Under the pieces are notes generated by a model that was not told the DNA's origin, made no database searches, and saw only the letters and a program-made list of their open reading frames with translations. From Alphaproteobacteria bacterium (GTDB lineage: Bacteria; Pseudomonadota; Alphaproteobacteria; UBA7887), in NCBI GenBank assembly GCA_030739735.1, contig JASLYQ010000001.1, positions 62,001 through 126,000 of the forward strand: 64,000 nt of DNA, in the 5' to 3' direction. This document shows positions 46,119 through 46,632 of the stretch, one piece after another. Position 1 is the first letter of the stretch. Every line of letters begins with the position of its first letter. The translations under genes and the position numbers were made by a program.

Positions 46119-46429
46119 TGGTGCCGCCTGTAGGATTCGAACCTACGACCCCCGCATTCTTACCACTACAGTTTTCACGGCCATCCGCCACCGTTGCAGA
46201 TGTTTGTGGTCTGGACTTTCTCTTCACCATAGCCACAGAGTGACCGTAGGTGGGTCGTGTAAAGTCTCTACACTCGTCCAATGATGGACTAGCACGGGAT
46301 TGCCATCAGCTTGACCCGTTAAGGTTTCCCCGTTTTAGCGACCTTTTCACCGCATCGTTTCCGATGCGGGACGCACAGCAGAATTGTGACTGCACGAATG
46401 CGATGCTCTACCAACTGAGCTAAGGCGGC
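46119..46429 (-). tRNA. tRNA-Thr(CGU) interrupted by a group I intron
   Basis: The 5' exon is 46394-46429 (36 nt) and the 3' exon 46119-46158, including an encoded CCA. Spliced, it folds as a standard tRNA: acceptor GCCGCCT/AGGCGGC with discriminator A, D-arm GCTC/GAGC, anticodon stem TCGCA/TGCGG, and T-arm GTAGG-TTCGAAT-CCTAC. The loop is TTCGTAA, so the anticodon is CGU (threonine, codon ACG). The intron lies after the third anticodon base, between U36 and A37. Without splicing the anticodon arm cannot form, so the gene depends on intron removal. Confidence 0.92.
46159..46393 (-). ncRNA. Self-splicing group I intron (IC3-like), 235 nt
   Basis: The intron follows a U and ends in G, as group I introns require. 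It has a P2 hairpin CCGCATCG-GAAA-CGATGCGG (plus-strand 46350-46369). It shares core text with the Azoarcus tRNA-Ile intron, including GGGAAACC, GATGGCAAT, GTGTAGAGACT, CCCACCTA and GCTATGGTGAAG. A GCG internal guide just before P2 could pair with exon CGU, matching the three-base P1 of Azoarcus. There is no homing endonuclease frame. Core and splice sites were recognised by eye; subgroup is inferred. Confidence 0.88.
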
Positions 46430-46600: not shown

Positions 46601-46632
46601 ATACGATGCTCTGCCAACTGATCTAAGGCGGC
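46601..46632 (-). pseudogene. Degenerate copy of the tRNA-Thr 5' half
   Basis: The minus strand reads GCCGCCTTAGATCAGTTGGC then AGAGCATCGTAT, differing from the tRNA-Thr 5' exon at only three positions over 32. Past the anticodon stem the match fails: a CATTTTAC...AAAATG hairpin sits where the anticodon loop should be, and no intact T-arm or acceptor end follows. It is 171 bases upstream of the split gene and is probably a decayed tandem duplicate. Confidence 0.6.

Follow-up and report, generated by a model that had tools for sequence, protein, structure and literature searches.

A tRNA-Thr(CGU) gene in the analysed stretch of DNA (64 kb of a 2.64-Mb alphaproteobacterial genome, hereafter the window) is interrupted immediately 3′ of its anticodon by a 235-nt insert. 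With high confidence, the insert can be identified as a small IC3 (Azoarcus/tRNA) group I intron, whose core type is likely to be of phage-related origin. The intron kind itself is already known, and tRNA-Thr(CGU) is a host gene for which no earlier report was found.

Anatomy of the gene and of the ribozyme

The gene consists of two exons and the intron between them:

46394–46429, minus strand: tRNA-Thr(CGU) exon 1, tRNA positions 1–36, 36 nt, with the anticodon CGU at 46394–46396 (ARAGORN on the spliced sequence; identical contiguous exon in the related genome G002)
46159–46393, minus strand: intron of group I (IC3 type) with a length of 235 nt, placed between tRNA positions 36 and 37 and ending in G at 46159 (empty-site comparison, covariation, independent covariance model)
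46119–46158, minus strand: tRNA-Thr(CGU) exon 2, 40 nt, with the CCA encoded (ARAGORN on the spliced sequence)

When the exons were joined, ARAGORN returned a 76-nt tRNA-Thr(cgt) with all stems paired, and no tRNA was called anywhere in the unspliced 64-kb window. The boundaries and the length of the intron were confirmed by an intronless allele in G002, a genome of the same family, in which the exons (query positions 12–47 and 283–322) are contiguous, so that the match breaks exactly at 47/283. The base before the 5′ splice site is U and the final base of the intron is G, and both bases are common to all Thr(CGU) introns compared. The initial annotation had given the same coordinates, strand, length and U/G splice boundaries and had read the joined exons as a tRNA-Thr with the anticodon CGU; all of these points were borne out. 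No ORF was found inside the intron, and the flanking sequence contained no convincing promoter or terminator for the tRNA gene. The flanking genes of the window were not found beside the tRNA in its relatives, within the stretches compared, and synteny was therefore uninformative.

The following ribozyme elements were assigned within the intron:

46372–46374, minus strand: internal guide triplet GCG, pairing with the anticodon CGU in P1, with U·G at the splice site (GCG in 12 of 12 Thr(CGU) introns)
46350–46369, minus strand: P2, a perfect 8-bp stem with a GAAA loop (sequence; covarying pairs)
46202–46348, minus strand: catalytic core P3–P8, matched by the covariance model R2
46339–46343, minus strand: P3 5′ strand GGTCG, pairing with CGACC at 46253–46257
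46253–46257, minus strand: P3 3′ strand CGACC (covariation, core alignment)
46262–46266, minus strand: P7 5′ strand GACTT, the guanosine-site helix, pairing with AAGTC at 46214–46218 (100% paired in all sequences; the last pair covaries)
46214–46218, minus strand: P7 3′ strand AAGTC (covariation, core alignment)
46162–46210, minus strand: P9 domain with two side hairpins (helices 8–11 of the covariation alignment)

P5 is a simple hairpin and P5abc is absent. In P1, the exon triplet CGU faces GCG of the intron (C-G, G-C and U·G), and about five further pairs are supplied by the intron, which brings the helix to approximately 8 bp. Thus, the three-base guide proposed in the initial annotation holds for the exon part of P1, three exon pairs being usual for tRNA introns of this family, whereas the whole helix is longer; the GAAA-capped P2 had been recognized correctly. 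No more than one P10 pair was seen between exon 2 and the guide strand.

The helices were evaluated in a covariation alignment (P2–P9) of six Thr(CGU) introns of the window type, three Arg(CCU) introns and two Leu(UAA) introns. In this alignment, 89.9% of cells were paired and 28 of the 55 assigned pairs showed changes in both partners, a result that was not equalled by any of 500 shuffles; sliding the partner strand by one column abolished the signal. In a core alignment that had P3 in the correct register, 91.5% of cells were paired and 18 pairs were changed on both sides; between lineages, such changes affected four of the six pairs of P3, which is pseudoknotted with P7.

Guide triplets followed the host gene among the assigned introns: CGU was matched by GCG (12/12), CCU by GGG (16/16), CUU of Leu(UAA) by GAG (39/39) and CAU by GUG (3/3). 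Other guides in a census of genomes described below were GGA for Lys, GCC for Thr(GGU) in 4 of 5 cases and GCA for Thr(UGU). Because the script picked the best complementary triplet, the evidence lies in the uniformity within each host and in the constant place of the triplet before P2. Among introns of the window type, the guide and splice-site bases were invariant.

Detection of the intron depended on the covariance model used. The Rfam scan of the window at the gathering cut-off gave no match; the Intron_gpI model (RF00028) aligned with the window intron over the whole model at 16.5 bits only (E 0.12; cut-off 50) and did not match the five relatives of the window type up to E 0.5. Related Thr and Arg introns scored 34–69 bits with RF00028, and an Arg(CCU) relative also fell below the cut-off, so the low score can be attributed to the insensitivity of this model to the subtype. 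Model R2 was built from 26 other tRNA introns, none of the window lineage, although its underlying alignment was fitted with a first model, R1, which did include that lineage. R2 matched the window intron at 122.5 bits (E 2.4e-28), as the sole match in 64 kb, and the five relatives at 116–130 bits. The score of R1 on the window is circular, since R1 contains the window intron, and it was left out of the evidence. The initial annotation had called an Azoarcus-type group I intron after the anticodon, had named the Rfam model as the check and had taken the lack of a significant covariance-model match as refutation. By Rfam alone the outcome would be exactly this; the R2 match and the covariation in P3 and P7 support the call.

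The assignment to IC3 is based on the anticodon-loop site 36/37, the length of 235 nt, the absence of P5abc and homology with tRNA-Leu, tRNA-Arg and tRNA-Ile introns in alignment and trees. The intron does not belong to the tRNA-Arg(CCU) intron family: the exons give tRNA-Thr(cgt), and the Arg(CCU) gene of the same genome (L040) is intronless.

Distribution, phage relatives and origin

Five more genomes of the family carry the intron at the same site with 81–83% identity, and G002 is without it. When 84,980 species genomes were scanned for a tRNA-Thr(CGU) gene split around an IC3-like anchor, ten records were obtained, all of them named Rhodospirillaceae, Rhodospirillales or Alphaproteobacteria and most of them marine MAGs. 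Four of them were already-known family members, and the other six carry a second intron type of 214–221 nt with the common core. In total, twelve genomes of marine alphaproteobacteria carry Thr(CGU) introns of two core types. Compared with the usual cellular core, the window core shows compensated changes in P3 (GGTCG/CGACC), P4 (A-U) and P6 (U-A).

A scan of IMG/VR for the P3–P4 string of the window matched one phage contig, L188 (IMGVR_UViG_3300014613_002122). Its intron (L188:960–1720) lies in a tRNA-Leu(UAA) gene and contains an ORF for an HNH endonuclease, located after the 5′ splice site and ahead of the core. Together with a second contig, L191 (IMGVR_UViG_3300028887_000077), it represents tRNA-Leu(UAA) introns of 657–682 nt with similar HNH-type ORFs inside. 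In another contig (L199:1740–1975, minus strand; IMGVR_UViG_3300027896_000041), a phage tRNA-Thr(UGU) gene is interrupted by a group I intron of 182 nt, which has GTGTAGAGACTTTACACGACCCACC in common with the window intron. Phage protein families adjoin both L188 and L199, and the gene beside L199 matches a phage family with E 8.6e-130. A general core pattern matched at least 120 stretches in IMG/VR, and IC3 introns were found to be common in viral contigs, many of them within tRNA arrays (L193, L204, L206, L213, L248 and others). Published descriptions differ from this picture: a 2014 review placed every phage intron then known in protein-coding genes (PMC3984707), and a 2019 report described phage tRNA introns only as enigmatic (PMC6784885).

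A tree was constructed from 105 cores over 139 columns, among them the introns of 50 viral loci retrieved by the general pattern. The six window-type introns and 11 introns from viral contigs, which are predicted as viral, formed a clade (100/97) without any other cellular intron of the sample, in a tree that has many unresolved forks and long viral branches. Several viral rows had been picked by patterns resembling the window core, and L248, L268 and L292 by the general pattern. Most of the viral introns of this clade, the nearest relatives of the window core, lie in phage tRNA genes. Assigned hosts in this clade were Leu(UAA) (L188, L191, L206, L213, L215) and Thr(UGU) (L199); the host of L248 is probably Asn(GUU). 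This grouping suggests that the window core type was most likely derived from introns in phage tRNA genes or goes back to a common ancestor with them, as far as partly biased sampling and a short alignment permit such a reading.

How the intron reached tRNA-Thr(CGU) can be explained only tentatively. Mobile IC3 introns that circulate among phage tRNA genes, some armed with an HNH endonuclease, may have seeded a tRNA-Thr gene of a bacterial host, after which the endonuclease was lost and the intron was fixed; we consider this scenario possible but not compelling. If it is true, a move to a new tRNA would need little beyond a change of the three-base guide, which pairs with an exon whose last base is U. 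Through its grouping with phage tRNA introns, some of which carry endonucleases, the intron has a concrete route by which it could spread horizontally.

It is possible, but short of probable, that one cellular insertion was ancestral to all Thr(CGU) introns, the window core having diverged through compensatory changes and phages having acquired copies from their hosts. The two core types agree in their site and in the guide GCG, both have GCGTCC at the junction and GTGAAAA following P2, and their P9 hairpins are similar; a single Thr(CGU) clade is compatible with the data when cellular introns alone are analysed (p-AU 0.55 and 0.52). However, with viral rows included, a single clade carries a cost of 60 log units (p-AU 0.069, a borderline value), and the second core type clusters with L090, an Arg(CCU) intron. 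The first core tree had seemed to require two independent Thr(CGU) origins, but the same one-clade test on cellular introns contradicted this, one clade being as good as two, and two origins are not claimed.

Splicing and the state of the gene

In the proposed mechanism, the intron would fold into P1–P9 in the primary transcript of tRNA-Thr(CGU). A guanosine bound in P7 would cut after U36, held in place by the U·G pair between CGU and the guide GCG; the freed exon would then attack after the terminal G of the intron, and the joined exons would form a functional tRNA-Thr reading ACG. Members of a family of marine alphaproteobacteria have the intron in common, and some members lack it. We infer splicing of the window intron from the preserved ribozyme and by analogy with the related Bartonella Arg(CCU) intron, for which splicing has been demonstrated (PMC7717549); the ribozyme may well be self-sufficient.

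The window genome also encodes tRNA-Thr(UGU), and tRNA-Thr(CGU) may therefore be dispensable, a condition that would make it easier for an intron to enter its gene. A tRNA family search of the assembled window genome (L032–L066) found no tRNA-Thr(GGU), which may reflect an assembly gap or another disrupted gene.

It is improbable that the intron has decayed and that tRNA-Thr(CGU) is a pseudogene, with Thr(UGU) reading ACG in its place. The loss would be bearable, given that tRNA-Thr(UGU) can read ACG by wobble; the low Rfam score would also agree with decay, as would a 32-nt stretch located 203 nt upstream that copies the exon 1 region at 91% and can be read as a relic. However, six genomes have intact copies of both exons, and the T-stems pair despite differing sequence (GUAGG/CCUAC versus GUGUG/CACAC); compensatory changes were kept in the core helices, and the guide and splice-site bases did not vary. 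The conservation of the exons in six genomes argues that tRNA-Thr(CGU) is still in use. The upstream copy itself (46601–46632, minus strand) corresponds to the 5′ half of tRNA-Thr, ends near the anticodon loop and could be left over from a tRNA duplication or be the scar of an integration.

Removal of the insert by a protein enzyme of the archaeal type, or the absence of any intron, can practically be dismissed: the site 36/37 is close to the canonical 37/38 of protein-spliced tRNA introns, but the insert contains a full group I core with P7 that R2 recognizes, and we know of no bulge-helix-bulge splicing system in bacteria.

Host genes and comparison with known introns

A census of 385 alphaproteobacterial and 398 pseudomonadotal genomes was carried out with R1, and the matches were spliced in silico; the host counts cover assigned introns, a few with broken or cut exons being left out. 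Among the hosts were Leu(UAA), Arg(CCU), Lys(UUU), Lys(CUU), Thr(GGU), Leu(CAA), Arg(UCU) and Ile/Met(CAU). Automatic host calls such as His(AUG) at 33/34 were rejected as alternative frames of Arg(CCU) or Thr(GGU).

Several further split genes were observed. Thr(GGU) genes of several alphaproteobacteria (L100, L110, L111, L118, L122) are interrupted at 36/37 by IC3 introns whose guide matches the host, and tRNA-Leu(CAA) genes (L112, L115, L125, L131) contain IC3-like introns at 33/34 of up to 431 nt. On the megaplasmid of Tritonibacter mobilis F1926 (NZ_CP015231.1; L186:2990–3330), tRNA-Thr(UGU) is split by a 252-nt group I intron, and this region is 66% identical to the query over nearly its full length. 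The window genome has a second group I intron, of 214 nt and of the common core type, in tRNA-Leu(UAA) (L002:1323–1622).

In the literature consulted, the bacterial tRNA hosts of group I introns are Leu, fMet, Ile and Arg, in agreement with the initial annotation, which had listed these four without Thr(CGU). Arg, Gly and Lys hosts have been claimed in one paper on cyanobacteria, but the inserts described there measure 22–49 nt, which is not long enough for a group I intron. No report of a group I intron in tRNA-Thr was found in the open-access literature, which is weak evidence of absence given that subscription papers lie outside this coverage. Thr(CGU) extends the small set of published hosts, and it is one of several Thr hosts observed (CGU, GGU, UGU). 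The new host fits a wider pattern of anticodon-loop sites after U that can be reached by a three-base guide, and the match between guide and anticodon provides a simple, testable rule for a change of host gene. The census also suggests that the published list is shaped by limits of detection: such split genes escape standard tRNA finders and Rfam, and genomes therefore appear to lack the tRNA.

Among known systems, tRNA-Leu(UAA) introns (including that of the window genome) are ribozymes of the same kind with the same P2–P9 plan. Unlike the window intron, they are located at 34/35, have the guide GAG and reside in a tRNA with a long variable arm; a Leu(UAA) intron reached 53.7 bits with Rfam Intron_gpI compared with 16.5 bits for the window intron. 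The Azoarcus tRNA-Ile(CAU) intron, an IC3 intron, resembles the window intron in its site after U36, its small core without P5abc and its three-base guide (GUG), the introns analysed here being gammaproteobacterial CAU relatives. Introns of this kind differ in their Ile/Met(CAU) host and shorter P9 and form a separate clade.

The phage-borne introns from IMG/VR (L188, L191, L199, L213, L215) belong to the same clade as the window type. They share with the window core P3 GGTCG/CGACC (L188, L199) as well as the closing A-U of P4 and GCU/AGU of P6 (L188), whereas their hosts are Leu(UAA) and Thr(UGU), and two of them carry an HNH endonuclease in the P1 loop, which the window intron does not. Alphaproteobacterial tRNA-Arg(CCU) introns (Agrobacterium, Bartonella BbgpI) differ from the window intron in the guide GGG for CCU, in the P3, P4 and P6 pairs and in the host gene. 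Nevertheless, they gave the best DNA match outside the family (72%, E 4.5e-23), occur in the same bacterial class at a length of 205–255 nt and, like the window intron, combine the site 36/37 and three exon pairs with an IC3-like core.
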